Source of the DNA: Bradyrhizobium sp. CB2312
GTDB lineage: Bacteria > Pseudomonadota > Alphaproteobacteria > Rhizobiales > Xanthobacteraceae
Reading direction: 5' to 3'
Length of the DNA: 64,000 nucleotides
Assembly (NCBI RefSeq): GCF_029714425.1
Contig: NZ_CP121668.1
Location: 1,199,501 to 1,263,500 of the forward strand
The notes beneath the pieces are model-generated. The model did no database searches and had not been told where the DNA came from. It was given only the letters and a program-made list of their open reading frames with translations. This document shows positions 6,060 through 27,500 of this stretch, piece after piece. Made by a program: the position numbers and the translations under genes. The stretch's first letter is position 1. Every line of letters starts with the position of its first letter.

Positions 6060-9000
6060 ATGAACGGGTCGCAATTCGAGCGCGCAAACATCGTGGCAGA
6101 ACAGCTGTCGGCGACGGTCGCCTCGAAACCGGCCGATCCGATTCAGGAGCACAACTCCCGTCCGGCCGCTGAAGGCCTCTACGATCCGAGCCTGGAGAAG
6201 GACAGCTGCGGCGTCGGCTTCATCGCCAACATCAAGGGCAAGAAGTCGCACGAGATCGTCTCGGACGCGCTCAGCATCCTCTGCAATCTCGAGCATCGCG
6301 GCGCGGTCGGCGCCGACCCGCGCGCCGGCGACGGTGCCGGCATTCTGGTGCAGATCCCGCACGCCTTCTTCAGCCGCAAGGCGAAGGAGCTCGGCTTCGC
6401 GCTGCCCAATCCCGGCGAATACGCCATCGGCGCGCTGTTCATGCCGCGCGACACCGCCTGGCGCAACGTCATCAAGAGCATCATCGCCGACCAGATCAAG
6501 GAAGAGGGCCTGACCCTGCTCGGCTGGCGCGACGTGCCGACCGACAATTCCTCGCTCGGCGTCACCGTGAAGCCGACCGAGCCCGCTTGCATGCAGGTGT
6601 TCATCGGCCGCAACGGGGTTGCCAAGACCGAGGACGAGTTCGAGCGCCGGCTCTACATCCTGCGCAAGTCGATCTCGCAGGCGATCTACCAGCGCCGCGA
6701 CCGCGGCCTTGCGGGCTACTATCCCTGCTCGATGTCCTGCCGCACCGTGATCTACAAGGGCATGTTCCTCGCCGACCAGCTCGGCAAGTACTATCCCGAT
6801 CTGCACGAGAAGGATTTTGAGAGCGCGCTCGCGCTGGTGCATCAGCGCTTCTCGACCAACACCTTCCCGGCGTGGTCGCTGGCGCATCCCTACCGCATGA
6901 TCGCGCATAACGGCGAGATCAACACGCTGCGCGGCAACACCAACTGGATGGCGGCGCGCCAGGCTTCGGTGAGCTCCGAGCTCTACGGCAAGGACATCAA
7001 CCGGCTCTGGCCGATCTCCTACGAAGGCCAGTCGGACACTGCCTGCTTCGACAACGCGCTCGAATTCCTGGTGCAGGGCGGCTACTCGCTGCCGCACGCC
7101 GTGATGATGATGATTCCGGAGGCGTGGGCCGGCAATCCCTTGATGGATGAGAAGCGCCGCGCCTTCTACGAATATCATGCCGCGCTGATGGAGCCGTGGG
7201 ACGGCCCCGCCGCGATCGCCTTCACCGACGGCCGCCAGATCGGCGCCACGCTCGACCGCAACGGCCTGCGGCCGGCGCGCTATCTCGTCACCAAGGACGA
7301 CCGCATCGTCATGGCGTCGGAGATGGGCGTGCTGACGATCCCCGAGGACCAGATCATCACCAAGTGGCGCCTGCAGCCCGGCAAGATGCTGCTGGTCGAC
7401 CTCGAGCAGGGCCGCCTGATCCCGGACGACGAGATCAAGGCCGAGCTCTCCAGGAGCCATCCCTACAAGGAGTGGCTGGAGCGGACCCAGATCGTGCTGG
7501 AAGAGCTGCCGAAGGTGCCGACCACCGGCGTGCGCTCCAACCTGTCGCTTTTGGATCGCCAGCAGGCGTTCGGCTACAGCCAGGAAGACATCAGCATCCT
7601 GATGACGCCGATGGCGGCCACGGGCGAGGAGGCAGCCGGCTCGATGGGCAACGACACGCCGATCTCGGCGCTGTCGGACAAGGCCAAGCCGCTGTTCACC
7701 TACTTCAAGCAGAACTTCGCGCAGGTCACCAACCCGCCGATCGACCCGATCCGCGAGGAGCTGGTGATGAGCCTCGTCTCGATCATCGGGCCGCGGCCGA
7801 ACCTGTTCGACCTCCAGGGCATGGCCACGACCAAGCGCCTCGAAGTGCGCCAGCCGATCCTGACCGATGCAGATCTGGAAAAGATCCGCTCGATCTCCGA
7901 CGTCGCCGAATCCCACTTCAAGTCGCGCACGCTGGACACCACCTTCCACGCCGGTCTCGGCGCGGCCGGCATGGACCAGGTGCTGGACGAGCTCTGCGCG
8001 CGCGCGGAGAGCGCGGTGCGTGAGGGCGTCAACATCATCATCCTGTCCGACCGCATGGTCGGCACCGACCGCGTGCCGATTCCGGCGCTGCTGGCCTGCG
8101 CCGCCGTGCATCATCATCTGATCCGCGTCGGACTGCGCACCTCGGTCGGCCTCGTCGTCGAATCGGGCGAGCCGCGCGAAGTCCATCACTTCGCCTGCCT
8201 CGCGGGTTACGGCGCCGAAGCGATCAATCCCTACCTCGCGTTCGAGACCATCATCGCGATGAAGGATCGCCTGCCCGGCTCGCTCGACGACTACGAGATC
8301 GTCAAGCGCTACATCAAGTCGATCGGCAAGGGCCTGCTCAAGGTCATGTCCAAGATGGGCATCTCGACCTACCAGTCCTATTGCGGCGCGCAGATCTTCG
8401 ACGCGGTCGGCCTCAAGGCGGACTTCGTGTCGAAGTTCTTTGCGGGCACGCATACCCGCGTCGAGGGCGTCGGCCTTGCCGAGATCGCCGAAGAGGCCGT
8501 GCGCCGCCATGCCGACGCGTTCGGCGAGGCGCAGGTCTACAAGACCTCACTCGATGTCGGCGGCGAATATGCCTATCGCAGCCGCGGCGAGGACCACGCC
8601 TGGACCGCCGAATCGGTGTCGCTGCTCCAGCACGCCGCGCGCGGCAACTCGCAGGAGCGCTACCGCGCCTTCGCAAAAATCCTCAACGAGCAGTCGGAGC
8701 GCCTGCTGACGCTGCGCGGCCTGTTCCGGATCAAGAACGCGGACGAAGAGAAGCGCAAGCCTGTAGCGCTCGACCAGGTCGAGCCCGCCAAGGACATCGT
8801 CAAGCGCTTCGCCACGGGTGCGATGAGCTTCGGCTCGATCTCGCGCGAGGCGCATACGACACTGGCGATCGCCATGAACCGGATCGGCGGCAAGTCGAAC
8901 ACCGGTGAAGGCGGCGAGGAAGCCGACCGCTTCAAGCCGATGCCAAACGGCGATTCCATGCGCTCGGCGATCAAGCAGGTCGCCTCGGGCCGCTTCGGCG

Positions 9001-10793
9001 TCACCACGGAGTATCTCGTCAACTCCGACATGATGCAGATCAAGATGGCGCAGGGTGCCAAGCCCGGCGAGGGCGGCCAGCTGCCCGGCCACAAGGTCGA
9101 CGCGACCATCGCCAAGGTCCGGCACTCGACGCCGGGCGTCGGCCTGATCTCGCCGCCGCCGCACCACGACATCTACTCGATCGAGGATCTGGCGCAGCTC
9201 ATCTACGACCTCAAGAACGTCAACCCGACGGGAGACGTCTCGGTCAAGCTCGTCTCCGAAATCGGCGTCGGCACGGTGGCCGCGGGCGTTGCCAAGGCGC
9301 GCGCCGACCATGTCACCATCGCCGGTTTCGAGGGCGGCACGGGCGCTTCGCCGCTGACCTCGATCAAGCATGCCGGCTCGCCCTGGGAGATCGGCCTTGC
9401 CGAAACCCACCAGACCCTGGTGCGCGAGCGGCTGCGCAGCCGCATCGTGGTCCAGGTCGACGGCGGCTTCCGCACGGGGCGTGACGTCGTGATCGGCGCG
9501 CTGCTCGGTGCCGACGAGTTCGGCTTCGCCACCGCGCCGCTGATCGCGGCCGGCTGCATCATGATGCGCAAGTGCCATCTCAACACCTGCCCGGTCGGCG
9601 TCGCCACCCAGGACCCCGTCCTGCGCAAGCGCTTCACCGGCCAGCCCGAGCACGTGATCAACTACTTCTTCTTCGTCGCGGAGGAAGTCCGCGAGATCAT
9701 GGCTTCGCTCGGCTTCCGCACCTTCAACGAGATGGTCGGCCAGGTTCAGCTGCTCGACCAGACCAGGCTGGTCGCGCACTGGAAGGCCAAGGGCCTCGAT
9801 TTCTCAAAACTGTTCGTCAAGCAGAAGGAAGAGAAGGGCCAGAAGATCTATCACTCCGAGCGCCAGAACCATCATCTGGAGGCGGTGCTCGACCGCACGC
9901 TGATCGAGAACGCGCAGCCCGCGCTCGACCGCGGCGCGCCGGTGAAGATCGAGGCCACGATCAACAGCACCAACCGTTCCGCCGGCGCCATGCTGTCGGG
10001 CGCGGTCGCCAAGATCTACGGCCATGCCGGTCTTCCGCACGACACCATCCATGTCGGCCTCAAGGGCACTGCCGGCCAGGCCTTCGGCGCCTGGCTCGCG
10101 CACGGCGTCACCTTCGGGCTCGAGGGCGAAGCCAACGACTATGTCGGCAAGGGCCTGTCGGGCGGCAAGATCATCGTCAAGCCGCCGCGCAACGGCGGCA
10201 TCGTGCCGGAAGAGAGCATCATCGTCGGCAACACCGTGATGTACGGCGCGATCGCGGGCGAGTGCTACTTCCGCGGCATCGCCGGCGAGCGCTTCGCCGT
10301 GCGCAACTCGGGCGCTGTCGCGGTGGTCGAGGGCGCGGGCGATCATTGCTGCGAATACATGACCGGCGGCATCGTGGTCGTGCTCGGCAAGACTGGGCGC
10401 AATTTCGCGGCCGGCATGTCGGGCGGCATCGCCTATGTGCTGGACGAGGCCGGCGATTTCGACAAGCTGTGCAACCTCAGCATGGTCGAGCTCGAGCCGG
10501 TTTTGTCGGAAGAGCTGATCAACGCCGGCACCTACAACCACTCCGGTGACCTCGAGGCGCATGGCCGGGTCGACGTGTTCAAGAACCTGCTCGACTCCGA
10601 CGTCGAGCGCCTGCACGTCCTGATCACGCGCCATGCGAAGGCGACCGGCTCCAGGCGCGCCGCCGAGATCCTTGCCAATTGGAAGGACTGGCTGCCCAAA
10701 TTCCGCAAGGTGATGCCGGTCGAATACCGGCGCGCACTGCGCGAGATGGCCGCCAATGCGGACGCCGAGCCGAAAATCGCGATCGGGGCGTAA
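6060..10793 (+). CDS. gltB: Glutamate synthase (NADPH) large subunit
   Basis: 1577 residues. It makes two glutamates from glutamine and 2-oxoglutarate and is the assimilatory partner of glutamine synthetase. A 49-residue leader precedes the catalytic Cys50 (DSCGVGF), which becomes the N-terminus after autocleavage. The class II amidotransferase domain reaches to about 450. It is followed by the central domain and the FMN domain with [16 protein letters not shown] and [10 protein letters not shown]. The 3Fe-4S ligands are Cys1166, Cys1172 and Cys1177 in C-x5-C-x4-C spacing. The C-terminal beta-helix starts near 1280 ([19 protein letters not shown]). Length and motifs are complete. gltD follows after a 141-base gap that contains a palindromic repeat. 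Confidence 0.98.
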
Positions 10794-10934: not shown

Positions 10935-12386
10935 ATGGGCAAGATCACGGGTTTTCTGGAAATCGAACGGCATGACCGCAAGTACACCCCGGTCACCGAG
11001 CGCGTGAAGCATTACAACGAGTTCGTCGTTCCCTTGAGCGAGAAGGAAGTGCGCGACCAGGCCGCGCGCTGCATGAACTGCGGCATTCCCTATTGCCACG
11101 GCACCGGCTCGGTCGCACCCGGTACGCCGGGCTGCCCGGTCAACAACCAGATCCCCGACTGGAACGACCTCGTCTATCAGGGCAATTGGGAAGAAGCCTC
11201 GCGCAACCTGCACTCGACCAACAATTTCCCCGAGTTCACCGGCCGCATCTGCCCGGCGCCGTGCGAAGCGTCCTGCACGCTCAACATCGACGACAACCCT
11301 GTCACCATCAAGACCATCGAATGCGCGATCGTCGACCGCGCCTGGGACAATGGCTGGCTGAAGCCCGAGGTCGCCGCCGAGAAGACCGGCAAGAAGGTCG
11401 CCGTGATCGGCTCGGGTCCGGCCGGCATGGCCTGCGCGCAGCAGCTCGCGCGCGCCGGCCACGACGTGCACCTGTTCGAGAAGTACGCCAAGGCCGGCGG
11501 CCTGCTGCGTTACGGCATCCCCGACTTCAAGATGGAGAAGGGCGTCATCGACCGCCGCGTCAAGCAGATGGAAGGCGAAGGCGTGACCTTCCACTACAAC
11601 AGCCATGTCGGCGCTGACGGCAATGTCGATCCGCGCGAGATGCTCAACGAGTATGACGCGATCGCGCTCACCGGCGGCGCGGAAGCCCCGCGCGATCTGC
11701 CGATCCCCGGCCGCGAGCTCGACGGCATCCACTACGCCATGGATTTCCTCCCGCAGCAGAACCGCCGCGTCTCCAACGAGCCGCTGGGCGGCGGCGCCGA
11801 CATCCTCGCCGGCGGCAAGCATGTCGTCGTCATCGGCGGCGGCGACACCGGATCTGACTGCATCGGCACCTCGATGCGTCAGGGCGCGCTGTCGGTGACC
11901 CAGCTCGAGATCATGCCCGCCCCGCCCGAGCGCGAGAACAAGGGCCTGACCTGGCCGAACTGGCCGCTGAAGATGCGCACCTCCTCCAGCCAGGCCGAAG
12001 GCGCCATCCGCGAATTCGCCGTACTGACCCAGAAGTTTTCCGGCGAGAACGGCAAGGTCAAGAAGCTGCACTGCGTCCGCGTCGACGACAAGTTCAAGCC
12101 GATCGCCGGCACCGAGTTCGAGCTCGACGCCGAGCTCGTGCTGCTCGCCATGGGCTTCGTGCACCCCGTGCACGAAGGCCTCTTGAAGCAGCTCGCGGTC
12201 GACCTCGACCCGCGCGGCAACGTCAAGGCCAACACGCTGGACTACCAGACCTCGCGTCCGAACGTGTTCTCCGCCGGCGACATGCGCCGCGGCCAGTCGC
12301 TGGTGGTGTGGGCGATCCGCGAGGGCCGGCTGTGCGCGCGGTCGATCGACACGTTCCTGATGGGGAAGACGGATCTGCCGCGCTAG
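10935..12386 (+). CDS. gltD: Glutamate synthase (NADPH) small subunit
   Basis: 483 residues, normal length. It oxidises NADPH through FAD and passes electrons through [4Fe-4S] clusters to GltB. The N-terminal cluster region holds [11 protein letters not shown] (about 48-58) and later CPAPCEASC near 108. The FAD site is [14 protein letters not shown] near 157. The NADPH site is [13 protein letters not shown] near 298, and [17 protein letters not shown] (about 450-466) closes the FAD domain. It follows gltB in the same direction and is almost surely its operon partner. Confidence 0.98.
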
Positions 12387-24464: not shown

Positions 24465-25247
24465 TTATTGGTTGAGCAGCTTGAGTGCTTCTTCGTGAAC
24501 TCTTGTATCGCCGGCGGCAACGATGCGGCCACCGCCCTGCGCCGGCTTGCCTTCCCAGGTGGTGACGACGCCGCCGGCGCCAGTCACGATCGGGATCAGG
24601 GCTGCGATGTCGTAAGGTTTCAGCTCGGTCTCGACCACGAGGTCGACATGGCCGGCCGCCAGCATGCAATAGGAATAGCAATCGCCGCCATAGCGCGACA
24701 GCCGCGCGCCCTGCTCGATCCGGCCGAAAATGGCGCGATCGCGCTCGTTCATCAGCAGCGGGGAGGTGGTGTAGGTGGTCGCCTCCGACAGCGAGGCACA
24801 GCGGCGGACCTGGAGCCGGCGCTCGCCGGAGGGACCCTTGTAATTGGCCGAGCCGTTGTCGCCGGAGAAGCGTTCGCCGATGAAGGGCTGGTGCATCATG
24901 CCGTAGACCGGCGTGCCCTTGTGCAGCAGCGCGATCAGCGTGCCCCAGATCGGAAAGCCGCCGATGAAGGATTTCGTGCCGTCGATGGGATCGAGCACCC
25001 AGACATAGTCGGCGTCCTCGCGCTCATTGCCGAATTCCTCGCCGACGATGCCGTGCTGGGGGAAGCTCGCCTTGATCAGCCGCCGCATCACCGCCTCGGC
25101 GGCGCGGTCGGCTTCGGTGACGGGATCGAAATCCTTGGTCTTGCTCTTGTCGTCGATCGACAGCGAGGTGCGGAAGAACGGCAGGATGGTTTCGCCGGAG
25201 GCGGTGGCGAGCCGTCCGATGAAGGCGGAGAAGTCGATCACCGTCAC
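24465..25247 (-). CDS. hisN: Inositol monophosphatase-family phosphatase, histidinol-phosphatase-like
   Basis: 260 residues. Metal ligands are visible: Glu in GEEFG near 71, then DPIDGTKSFI near 86-95, and Asp in KPYDIAALIPIV near 210. DGTKSF rather than DGTTNF favours the histidinol-phosphatase (HisN) branch over the inositol-phosphatase branch (SuhB). It would remove phosphate from histidinol phosphate in histidine synthesis. The cytosolic protein lacks a signal. It precedes the Bug protein gene on the same strand. A candidate sRNA of the suhB/mmgR type lies 340 bp upstream on the opposite strand, a neighbour pair seen in rhizobia. Confidence 0.85.
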   Translation of the reverse strand: MTVIDFSAFIGRLATASGETILPFFRTSLSIDDKSKTKDFDPVTEADRAAEAVMRRLIKASFPQHGIVGEEFGNEREDADYVWVLDPIDGTKSFIGGFPIWGTLIALLHKGTPVYGMMHQPFIGERFSGDNGSANYKGPSGERRLQVRRCASLSEATTYTTSPLLMNERDRAIFGRIEQGARLSRYGGDCYSYCMLAAGHVDLVVETELKPYDIAALIPIVTGAGGVVTTWEGKPAQGGGRIVAAGDTRVHEEALKLLNQ

Positions 25248-25548
25248 GGCGTGTCCTCAAAACGAAAGTGGGGTGAAGCTTGCATCTGCCTAGCTCAAAT
25301 CGCCTCTCGCGTGCAGCGCTGTCTTGATTTGCACCCTGGTATTTTGAATGCAGAGGGCCGTCGCCTCATTCGAGTCATCCGCTGGCCAAATATCGATCAC
25401 AGAGTTGAAAACTTAGTTCCGAGTATGCCTCGTTCGTATGCAAATGACTATCAACCCATTGAAATTCCTTATCAAAGAAACTGAATCTGGGTTTCTCTAG
25501 AAGCAATTGAGCCATGTGCATATTGCATGGGAAACGGCTCAAAAGGCC
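25248..25548. other. AT-richer gap upstream of hisN
   Basis: About 300 bases of lower GC than the surroundings, with no supportable gene on either strand. It must hold the hisN promoter (reverse strand) and the sRNA control region (forward strand). No clear repeats or operators are visible. Confidence 0.5.
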
Positions 25549-25577
25549 TTGCACTTTGTGCGTCGCGGCCGCATATT
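25549..25577 (+). promoter_or_regulatory. Promoter candidate of the sRNA
   Basis: TTGCAC (25549-25554) and CATATT (25572-25577) are spaced by 17 bases. Each matches the sigma-70-type consensus only moderately (3 and 4 of 6 bases), but the spacing is ideal. The predicted start, near 25584, falls just before the first hairpin of the sRNA. Confidence 0.45.
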
Positions 25578-25583
25578 GTTGCG

Positions 25584-25672
25584 GTGCGGTAGCGCTTCGC
25601 GTTACCGCTGCCCTCCTTGGGCGTTTCCTCCCTAGACTTGGGCCGCTTCTTCATTAGAAGCGGCCCTTTTTT
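25584..25672 (+). ncRNA. suhB/mmgR-like small RNA (alpha-r8 type)
   Basis: About 90 nt. Hairpin 1 is GCGGTAGCG / CGTTACCGC (25586-25608). Hairpin 2 is GCCC-TCCTT-GGGC (25610-25622) with CCUCC in and beside its loop. A single-stranded UUUCCUCCC (25624-25632) follows. The terminator GGGCCGCTTCT / AGAAGCGGCCC (25640-25666) ends in six T. Two exposed anti-Shine-Dalgarno CCUCC motifs before a GGGCCGC terminator are what is known of the suhB (mmgR) RNAs of rhizobia. That family was named for its position near an inositol-monophosphatase-type gene, and hisN of that family is the divergent neighbour here. The family assignment is from memory of the motif; 5' end inferred. Confidence 0.65.
25640..25672 (+). 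terminator. Rho-independent terminator of the sRNA
   Basis: An 11-bp perfect stem GGGCCGCTTCT / AGAAGCGGCCC with loop TCATT, then TTTTTT. There is no protein-coding gene on this strand upstream for more than 1 kb, which itself indicates a non-coding transcript. Confidence 0.93.
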
Positions 25673-25772
25673 CTTTGGGCCTCGGTTTTCATTTTGGCGC
25701 GCGCAAGCGGCGAAGCGAAAACGCGTTCGCACCCAGCGCGCGCGACGCGATCATCCGAAGAAAAGCTGCCGT

Positions 25773-26663
25773 CTATTCTGCTGCGGCCTGGAACGGGCCG
25801 AGATCGCCGAACGGGATCGTCGTCGCCAGCACGTCGGCGAGCACGCCGAAGTCGGACGCCACTTGCGCAAAGCGCGGGCCGCGCTCGCGCCGCCGCTCGT
25901 CCATGTAGATCGCGCGATTGAGCTCGAGCTGCACGGCATGCAGGCCGCTTGCGGGGTTGCCGTAATGCTCGGTGATGAAGCCGCCAGCATAGGGCTTGTT
26001 GCGGCCGATCGAATAGCCGAGCCCGCCCAGGGTCTCCTCGATCCTGTCAGGCAACAGCGGCGTGCAACTGGTGCCGTAGCGATCGCCGATCACGACGTCG
26101 GGCCGGCGCGGCTCGTCTCTGCTGACGCCGACCGACGGCATCGAGTGACAGTCGACCAGCACCACGGTGCCGAATATCTGGTGCACCTTGTTGATCAGCC
26201 GGCGCAGCGCGCGGTGATAGGGCTTGTAGAGCGTCTCGATCCGCGCCAGCGCATCGTCGACCAGGATGCGTTCGCGATAGATCTCCTGGCCGTCGCCGAC
26301 CACGCGCGGAATGGTCCCTAGGCCGCCCGCGACCCGCATCGAACGGGTGTTGGCGAAGCTAGGCAGGCGGCCGGAGAACATGCGGGGATCGAGCTCATAG
26401 GGCTCGCGATTGACGTCGACATAGGAGCGGGGAAAGTTGACCCGCACGGTCGGAAAGCCGCGCGCGCTCAAATGTCCGATCAGCTCGTCCATGAAGGAAT
26501 CTTCGGACCGCCGCAGCGTCGTCAGGTCGATCCGCGATGCGCTGAGGAATTCGTCCGGATAGGTCGAGCCGGAATGGGGCGAGTTGAAGATGACTGGCGC
26601 GCGCCATTCGGCGGGCTCCACGATCTCGAAGGCTGGCGACACCTCGCCGTCAAACCGCGTCAT
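25773..26663 (-). CDS. N-formylglutamate amidohydrolase (HutG-type)
   Basis: 296 residues, a full-length match to the FGase family. It hydrolyses N-formylglutamate (or related N-acyl amino acids) to glutamate and formate, the last step of one histidine-degradation route. Conserved features are VIFNSPHSGSTYPDEFL near 24-40, the EDSFMDELI segment, PRSYVDVNREPYELDPRMF, VLVDCHSMPSVGV with the metal-binding His near 168, and HYGNPASGLHAVQLELNRAI with catalytic residues near 240. No other hut genes are in the window. A 9-bp-arm palindrome 28 bases before the start could be its operator. Confidence 0.92.
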   Translation of the reverse strand: MTRFDGEVSPAFEIVEPAEWRAPVIFNSPHSGSTYPDEFLSASRIDLTTLRRSEDSFMDELIGHLSARGFPTVRVNFPRSYVDVNREPYELDPRMFSGRLPSFANTRSMRVAGGLGTIPRVVGDGQEIYRERILVDDALARIETLYKPYHRALRRLINKVHQIFGTVVLVDCHSMPSVGVSRDEPRRPDVVIGDRYGTSCTPLLPDRIEETLGGLGYSIGRNKPYAGGFITEHYGNPASGLHAVQLELNRAIYMDERRRERGPRFAQVASDFGVLADVLATTIPFGDLGPFQAAAE

Positions 26664-26990
26664 CTTCTCAGGCTTCGTCCCTTCGCCGCACGATCCGGGC
26701 CCCCGGATCGAATGATTCGGCCGGTCGAGCGGCTCTTATGTGTCGTCATTGTCCGGAATCGCAACCATTCTGCCAAGCGAAAAGATGTGACGGGCACTGG
26801 AACTTGTCTTAACCGTGCGGGCATCGAGGTGGGGATGGGCGCGACCGGCTCGATTGATTCGCAGCCCCTTCGGGTTCACAAAGGTCCGGCAGCGCGAGCC
26901 GGCGCGGGTTAAGATTTTCACCCCAAATTTACCGTCTGTCGGGCTTAGTGATTGCTGCTGATATCCTCTGGGGATTCGACGTTTCCTGCC
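26664..26990. other. Gap between divergent amidohydrolase and cpdR genes
   Basis: 327 bases without a supportable gene. Apart from the palindrome at 26691-26710, I see two isolated TTAA half-sites (26809 and 26909) but no full TTAA-N7-TTAA CtrA box, and no confident promoter. Confidence 0.4.
26691..26710. promoter_or_regulatory. Palindrome upstream of N-formylglutamate amidohydrolase
   Basis: CGATCCGGG-CC-CCCGGATCG, perfect 9-bp arms with a 2-base spacer, 28 bases upstream of the amidohydrolase start codon. It could be a repressor operator, though GC-rich palindromes are frequent in this genome. Confidence 0.4.
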
Positions 26991-27350
26991 ATGCCAAAGA
27001 TCCTGCTCGCCGAAGACGACAACGACATGCGCCGTTTCCTAGTCAAGGCGCTGGAAAACGCCGGTTTTCAGGTCTCGTCCCATGACAACGGTATGGCCGC
27101 CTATCAGCGGCTCCGGGAAGAGCCGTTCGAGATGCTGCTGACCGACATCGTGATGCCGGAAATGGACGGGATCGAGCTCGCCCGCCGGGCCTCGGAACTC
27201 GACCCCGACATCAAGATCATGTTCATCACGGGTTTTGCCGCGGTCGCCCTGAACTCGGATTCGGACGCCCCCAAGAACGCCAAGGTGCTGTCCAAGCCCG
27301 TGCATCTGCGCGAATTGGTCAGCGAAGTGAACAAGATGCTGGCGGCCTAA
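26991..27350 (+). CDS. cpdR: CpdR-like single-domain response regulator
   Basis: 119 residues from the ATG at 26991; the upstream in-frame ATG at 26952 adds nothing conserved. It is a bare receiver domain: acidic pocket AEDDND at 7-12, phosphoacceptor Asp52 in LLTDIVMPEMDG, and the Lys of LSKPVHLRELV near 105. The beginning MPKILLAEDDNDMRRFLVKA and the conserved FITGFAAVAL segment are characteristic of CpdR. In Caulobacter and rhizobia CpdR in its unphosphorylated form directs ClpXP to the pole to degrade cell-cycle proteins such as CtrA; its partner is the CckA-ChpT phosphorelay. It precedes tRNA-Val. Confidence 0.9.
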   Translation: MPKILLAEDDNDMRRFLVKALENAGFQVSSHDNGMAAYQRLREEPFEMLLTDIVMPEMDGIELARRASELDPDIKIMFITGFAAVALNSDSDAPKNAKVLSKPVHLRELVSEVNKMLAA

Positions 27351-27425: not shown

Positions 27426-27500
27426 GGGCACGTAGCTCAGCGGGAGAGCACTACCTTGACATGGTAGGGGTCACAGGTTCGATCCCTGTCGTGCCCACCA
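27426..27500 (+). tRNA. tRNA-Val (anticodon GAC), CCA encoded
   Basis: 75 nt. Acceptor stem GGGCACG / CGTGCCC, D arm GCTC-AGCGGGA-GAGC, anticodon arm CTACC-TTGACAT-GGTAG giving anticodon GAC, T arm ACAGG-TTCGATC-CCTGT, then ACCA. All four arms pair completely. Confidence 0.97.

Follow-up and report, generated by a model that had tools for sequence, protein, structure and literature searches.

A predicted MmgR/alpha-R8 small RNA gene with two PhaR-type promoter boxes at the canonical locus of Bradyrhizobium sp. CB2312

Known alpha-R8 RNAs and the CB2312 locus

MmgR of S. meliloti is the alpha-R8 RNA linked to PHB, and it is reported to have no direct base-pairing target identified so far (PMC12559287). 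Deletion of the MmgR core raises PhaP1 and PhaP2 and gives 20% more PHB (PMC8401924). The mmgR gene is repressed by AniA (PhaR) and activated by NtrC (PMC7143759, PMC8401924), and PhaR, which represses its targets, is drawn off by PHB granules (PMC12542648). The S. meliloti PhaR site, YGCRNYGCR, was tested by EMSA with the mmgR promoter included (one site listed); PhaR shifted the mmgR promoter, and tested promoters with palindromes removed or mutated gave no shift (PMC12542648). For B. diazoefficiens, the PhaR consensus is TGCRNYGCASMA, from footprints and promoter alignment (PMC6201568), and phaP1 has two PhaR boxes (PMC10888616). In most species, an alpha-R8 copy adjoins an FGase gene, as does Caulobacter SisA (PMC12559287).

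We compared these systems with a locus of Bradyrhizobium sp. CB2312; coordinates refer to the window, the whole 64-kb stretch of DNA analysed. The CB2312 element shares with S. meliloti MmgR the RF00519 model, three stem-loops, the UUUCCUCCCU core and a PhaR-type box (published CAATTGTGCACCGCAGCATTA), whereas the SL1 sequences differ, and S. meliloti reportedly has MmgR as its only alpha-R8 copy (PMC12559287), with one listed PhaR site, while CB2312 has five copies. Ensifer locus L105 likewise has a box just after its CTTGAC -35, but only that one, whereas CB2312 has a second box over the predicted start. Caulobacter crescentus SisA-D, also alpha-R8, have in common with CB2312 the family core, the FGase linkage (SisA) and dispersed siblings with unrelated promoters; a feature of the Caulobacter RNAs is their antagonism by the sponge CrfA (PMC12559287). 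Two PhaR boxes around one promoter also occur at B. diazoefficiens phaP1 and S. meliloti phaP1 and phaP2 (PMC10888616, PMC6201568, PMC12542648). However, the boxes at these phasin promoters flank the -35 (in B. diazoefficiens 17 nt apart, the proximal one overlapping the -10), whereas those of CB2312 flank the -10 and lie 12 nt apart, and the predicted product is an sRNA.

Searching the window with Rfam covariance models, we found RF00519 (suhB/mmgR, alpha-r8; current Rfam description, Makes More Granules Regulator RNA, mmgR) at 25603-25680 (+) with 75.1 bits relative to a gathering score of 41 (E = 1e-13, search space the whole 64-kb window). This search had been proposed by the first-pass annotation, which called the element a suhB/mmgR-type sRNA, and the call stands. 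Judged from its sequence, the stretch is very probably the gene of a regulatory sRNA of the known MmgR/suhB type. The gene and its neighbours are as follows.

25584..25672, + strand: predicted MmgR/alpha-R8 sRNA (RF00519; fold z -7.65; conserved 5' hairpin from 25586; 5' end inferred)
24465..25247, - strand: hisN, divergent neighbour, inositol-monophosphatase family (TIGR02067, 350.2 bits, cut-off 275.15; PF00459)
25773..26663, - strand: FGase gene (N-formylglutamate amidohydrolase family), convergent neighbour and canonical alpha-R8 marker (PF05013, 249.2 bits)

The FGase gene does not reach the cut-off of TIGR02017, a stricter model. Since the sRNA gene adjoins this published alpha-R8 marker, it is the canonical copy. 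The first-pass annotation had relied on the inositol-monophosphatase-family neighbour; hisN was correctly named (350.2 bits against 275.15) and is linked in all 30 genus loci counted, but the marker given in the literature is the FGase gene on the opposite side (PMC12559287). The annotation also placed gltBD in the window, where we found gltB at 6060-10793 and gltD at 10935-12386. With considerable confidence, we read the element as the FGase-linked (canonical) alpha-R8/MmgR sRNA gene, whose anti-Shine-Dalgarno RNA would be repressed by PhaR until PHB titrates PhaR away. The gene is ordinary, being clearly one more member of a known family in its canonical position; its specialist interest lies in the double PhaR-type operator and in siblings embedded at alanine dehydrogenase (ald) genes.

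Elsewhere at the locus, a CGATCAC block upstream of hisN (25394-25400) is conserved in the alignment of genus loci and is perhaps, as a guess, part of the hisN promoter. A gene for the response regulator CpdR lies at 26952-27350 (NF046022 over cut-off), with a relative beside the sRNA in 71/81 and 42/51 FGase-linked loci, and a tRNA gene was found by Rfam at 27426-27497 (+). The CB2312 genome has 9.78 Mb and a nodC gene over cut-off.

PhaR-type boxes at the sRNA promoter

The promoter-like pair of the first-pass annotation is present in the sequence (TTGCAC at 25549-25554 and CATATT at 25572-25577, spaced 17 bp). It had been described as a weak promoter; the pair holds, but the region is more than a weak generic promoter, because it carries two conserved PhaR-type boxes. 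The promoter features are as follows.

25523..25534, + strand: upstream element TTGCATGGGAAA, mostly conserved across the genus (about 60-99% at each position, 30 loci)
25548..25553, + strand: -35 element CTTGCA (CTTGC, 25548-25552, invariant in 30 genus loci; TTGCAC of the earlier annotation is 25549-25554)
25559..25567, + strand: PhaR-type box 1, TGCGTCGCG, between -35 and -10 (YGCRNYGCR; in 30/30 genus loci)
25572..25577, + strand: -10 element CATATT (invariant in 30 genus loci)
25580..25588, + strand: PhaR-type box 2, TGCGGTGCG, spanning the predicted start and 21 bp from box 1 (no variation among 30 genus loci)

Among the 30 aligned genus loci, the A and C at 25553-25554 vary and box 1 keeps the form YGCRNYGCR throughout. 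With a matrix built from 24 B. diazoefficiens sites published as PhaR-repressed, the majority of which were consensus predictions, box 2 ranked 3rd and box 1 19th of the 127,978 positions in the window, and the PhaR gene is present in the CB2312 genome. Hence a candidate promoter PhaR (AniA) site, a feature of alpha-R8 membership as in S. meliloti mmgR, is found here. A dyad conserved in the -35/-10 spacer of mmgR promoters has already been published (PMC8401924) and is probably box 1. No sRNA is mentioned in the main texts of the B. diazoefficiens PhaR papers (PMC10888616, PMC6201568), the terms 'tandem' and 'two binding sites' are absent from the main text of PMC12542648 (figures apart), and the titles and abstract openings of the literature searched gave nothing on a double operator at mmgR.

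To follow the boxes across relatives, we counted pairs 18-22 bp apart within 120 bp. FGase-linked loci had the pair in 30/30 (genus), 22/27 (family) and 20/24 (order, best-scoring) cases, groups made up of the top-scoring matches in each draw and biased towards close relatives, and in 18/50 further order loci hand-picked from the remaining best matches listed (total 90/131). At least one box between -80 and -30 from the core was found in 30/30, 27/27, 23/24 and 44/50, respectively (total 124/131). Hence, in the fourth group, the pair thins out and one box mostly stays. These counts exclude L014 (a short locus that has both boxes), L177 (lacking upstream sequence) and the loci at which no FGase was found (10/91 in one set and 9/60 in another). 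In comparison, copies without FGase had the pair in 0/63 and any box in that band in 2/63, and random windows, drawn from the same loci, mostly coding and unmatched in composition, had 5/3296 and 191/3296, respectively. The pair in 30/30 genus loci and at least one box in 124/131 across the order suggest a widespread role of PHB sensing as an input to the canonical copy, one that the siblings have escaped. Thus the boxes may tie the sRNA to the carbon reserve of the cell, and the comparison of loci makes the open point of the MmgR-PHB link testable.

RF00519 was over cut-off in 60/60 genus, 78/80 family and 115/150 order genomes, in draws that overlap and with stricter filters for searches of more than 40 genomes. 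PhaR was present in 112/115 order genomes with an over-cut-off suhB relative to 16/35 without (tally 112/3/16/19, with 16 under-cut-off genomes inferred from E-values), a comparison confounded by clades lacking both. Of the three genomes with suhB and without PhaR, two have a completeness of just 56% and 67%. In the remaining one, the complete genome G159, the best copy (L176) lacks a box, as absence of PhaR would predict; but L176 was found to have no FGase and no hisN beside it, so it may not be the canonical copy. In family f23, no box was found at L178 (FGase-linked) or L190 (HisN-linked), though both genomes have PhaR. Given the linkage of L176 and these boxless loci of the same family with PhaR, the co-occurrence of PhaR and suhB is not clean support.

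An unlikely alternative is that the sRNA is real but its TGC-rich boxes serve another regulator, for example of the nitrogen system, with PhaR control minor here. S. meliloti mmgR is also NtrC-activated (PMC7143759, PMC8401924), a review ties NtrC as well as AniA control to the conserved dyad between -35 and -10 (PMC8401924), the further conserved element at 25523-25534 lies upstream of the promoter, and f23 lacks boxes despite PhaR. However, both boxes fit the matrix from published PhaR sites and match the palindrome type EMSA-tested in S. meliloti (PMC12542648), and, subject to the same confounding by clades lacking both, PhaR accompanies suhB in the order genomes (112/115 against 16/35). 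We therefore prefer PhaR as the regulator acting on the boxes.

With PhaR as the regulator, the gene would be off when PHB is scarce, as PhaR would occupy box 1, within the promoter, and box 2, at the start site; the two boxes may allow tighter repression. Once PHB granules titrate PhaR, sRNA production would begin and further storage would be restrained. Transcription would start at about 25584-25585 and end at the terminator near 25672. With the help of Hfq, UUUCCUCCCU (and the CCUCC of SL2) in the RNA would base-pair with ribosome-binding sites and block translation. For the CB2312 genome, we infer expression, PhaR repression through the two boxes, the Hfq role and the targets.

Phasins are one target that we do not claim. 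A usable start was available at 10 of 11 phasin loci, and there the core paired with the ribosome-binding sites at a mean of -17.2 kcal/mol; the mean of 40 background genes was -16.4 kcal/mol (p = 0.22). Hence, since the core pairs no better than with background genes, a phasin target is unsupported in silico. A PhaR-type box was found within 300 bp of the chosen start at 4/10 phasin promoters, two of which have two boxes; this is weak, since the background rate would give about 0.36 boxes in 300 bp, and we place no weight on it.

RNA structure and 5' end

Folding 25584-25672 gave -48.4 kcal/mol (z = -7.65), with 0/200 shuffles equally stable, and recovered the three hairpins claimed from the sequence as SL1, SL2 and a terminator hairpin. 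The RNA features are as follows.

25586..25608, + strand: SL1, 5' hairpin of 9 or 10 bp (fold; the Rfam match begins within its 3' arm)
25610..25622, + strand: SL2, 4-bp hairpin with CCUCC 25612-25616 in its loop and 5' arm (fold)
25624..25633, + strand: family core UUUCCUCCCU, single-stranded anti-Shine-Dalgarno seed (sequence; unpaired in the MFE and centroid; follows a weak hairpin)
25640..25672, + strand: SL3 and T tract, intrinsic (Rho-independent) terminator (hairpin 25640-25666, 11 pairs; T tract 25667-25672)

The 10-mer named for alpha-R8 in PMC12559287 is identical to UUUCCUCCCU. A strong terminator had been predicted, and the fold agrees, with 11 pairs at 25640-25666 followed by the T tract at 25667-25672. 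The coordinates of the first-pass annotation hold, but the two CCUCC motifs that it called exposed fared unequally: the second (25627-25631) is fully single-stranded in the model, but the first (25612-25616) is partly exposed, its first two C paired in SL2 and the remainder in the loop.

We found the region upstream of SL2 to be structured across 132 FGase-linked loci (median fold z about -3.4; z < -2 in 122/132; mononucleotide shuffles, 100 per locus). Base-pair changes were counted in 27 of 41 distinct genus and family sequences, picked by eye for similar SL1 length and offset, a choice that leans towards structure. In these 27, SL1 had 99.2% of cells paired, and the outer 8 pairs of the terminator formed in 27/27. 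The whole structure had 9 cells changed on both sides relative to 1.3 in shuffles (0/500 as high), with two SL1 pairs holding 6 of the 9. Counted as pairs, 3 were changed on both sides, a number matched by 28/500 shuffles, and slides of -1 and +3 columns also gave 3 such pairs (with 5 and 4 cells, respectively). These statistics are support, not proof, of a conserved 5' hairpin. SL2 is without covariation evidence because it is invariant in the 27 sequences.

The conserved SL1 places the RNA start at or before 25586, in agreement with the -10 element at 25572-25577. Hence, the predicted transcript would run from about 25584/5 to 25672 (88-89 nt), within the 85-95 nt of the earlier annotation. 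A trait of the family is expression as an Hfq-bound RNA of ~77-90 nt. The hairpin also suggests that the Rfam model could be extended by about 20 nt at its 5' end to include SL1. The present analysis establishes directly the family membership, the structure, the canonical locus, the conservation of both boxes and the PhaR gene.

It is very improbable that conservation is limited to the terminator and hairpins, forming a 3' end in the hisN-FGase interval with no separate sRNA. The element does sit between two minus-strand genes, hisN and FGase, but its T tract and model match are on the plus strand. Moreover, the -10 element, box 2 and the single-stranded core are as conserved as the hairpins in the genus, and RNAs of this family have been detected in S. 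meliloti and Caulobacter (PMC7143759, PMC12559287). The claim that no gene lies in between also holds, as the ORFs listed there are only mechanical, antisense to the element or overlapping it. One of them, the plus-strand ORF 25617-26321, was rejected as a gene: it begins within SL2, crosses the terminator and is antisense to FGase.

Four other sRNA models matched the same strand below their own cut-offs (score/cut-off): NmsRb 25.2/52, RcsR1 20.2/60, sbrA 19.4/45 and SorY 18.8/111. Membership in another anti-Shine-Dalgarno family, AbcR (alpha-r15) or NmsR-like, is ruled out by the Rfam scores and deserves next to no credence, for while AbcR is partly homologous to suhB, with three stem-loops and two CU-rich motifs (PMC7143759), and NmsR (RF02877) spans 25584-25671 with 25.2 bits, that score is under its gathering cut-off of 52, suhB leads by about 50 bits, and the locus and 10-mer are those of alpha-R8.

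Sibling copies and the alanine dehydrogenase 3' UTR

The CB2312 genome has five RF00519 copies, all over cut-off, within a range of 1 to 12 matches per genus genome. No PhaR-type box was found in the 90 bases before the match in the four other CB2312 copies. Two of these siblings (L132:3046-3120 and L134:2855-2929) follow an alanine dehydrogenase gene (TIGR00518), with one base between its TGA and the family match; a third CB2312 alanine dehydrogenase gene over cut-off (L238) has no such element after its stop. Counting these two and 14 loci of other genomes, we found exactly this arrangement at 16 loci from 13 genomes, among 64 loci taken from the matches listed (one, L129, FGase-linked). All 13 genomes are among the 32/60 with nodC over cut-off (hypergeometric P 7e-5; loci hand-chosen among the matches listed). 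Genomes with nodC average 5.6 matches relative to 2.7 without (p = 5e-7, uncorrected for genome size or kinship).

The ald-linked copies look like 3'-UTR-derived sRNAs, going by their position; the RNA would need release from the ald mRNA or a start inside the ald gene. This suggests the ald 3' UTR as a place to look for sRNA. The arrangement is absent from the available account of SisA-D in PMC12559287, and the titles and abstract openings of the literature searched held nothing on it. In the 11 of 16 loci with a settable start, no sigma-54 or NifA site was found upstream of the ald genes with a 3' alpha-R8 copy, and a PhaR-type box, TGCGTCGCA/G, was found within 70 bases upstream in 9/11. 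Because these loci are close relatives, the evidence from conservation is weak and the ald-upstream box is a lead only. It lies 60-61 bases before ald at L132, L210, L212, L215, L223-L225, L232 and L233, and is absent at L134 and L197.

It is possible, though we lean slightly against it, that two alpha-R8 circuits have arisen in the nodulating relatives: in one, the core copy described here would sense the PHB store by way of a double PhaR operator; in the other, siblings in the ald mRNA 3' UTR would yield an anti-Shine-Dalgarno sRNA each time ald is expressed. If true, the same RNA seed would receive input from both carbon storage and alanine metabolism.

Two further sibling classes were seen. 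One, with TTGCTCGGGCG or a close form before the core, recurs in the genus (L133:2975-3048, L214, L216, L217, L219, L220, L222, L226-L229, L231 and L236); its CB2312 member, L133, lies near what reads like cytochrome oxidase genes. The other has the terminator stretch GTGGCAACGCAGGCGGCC (L112-L115, L117, L118, L121, L125-L128 and L135), with several copies in some genomes. Two identical copies of the GTGGCAACGCAGGCGGCC class are on the second contig of G010, and spread by mobile DNA is possible.
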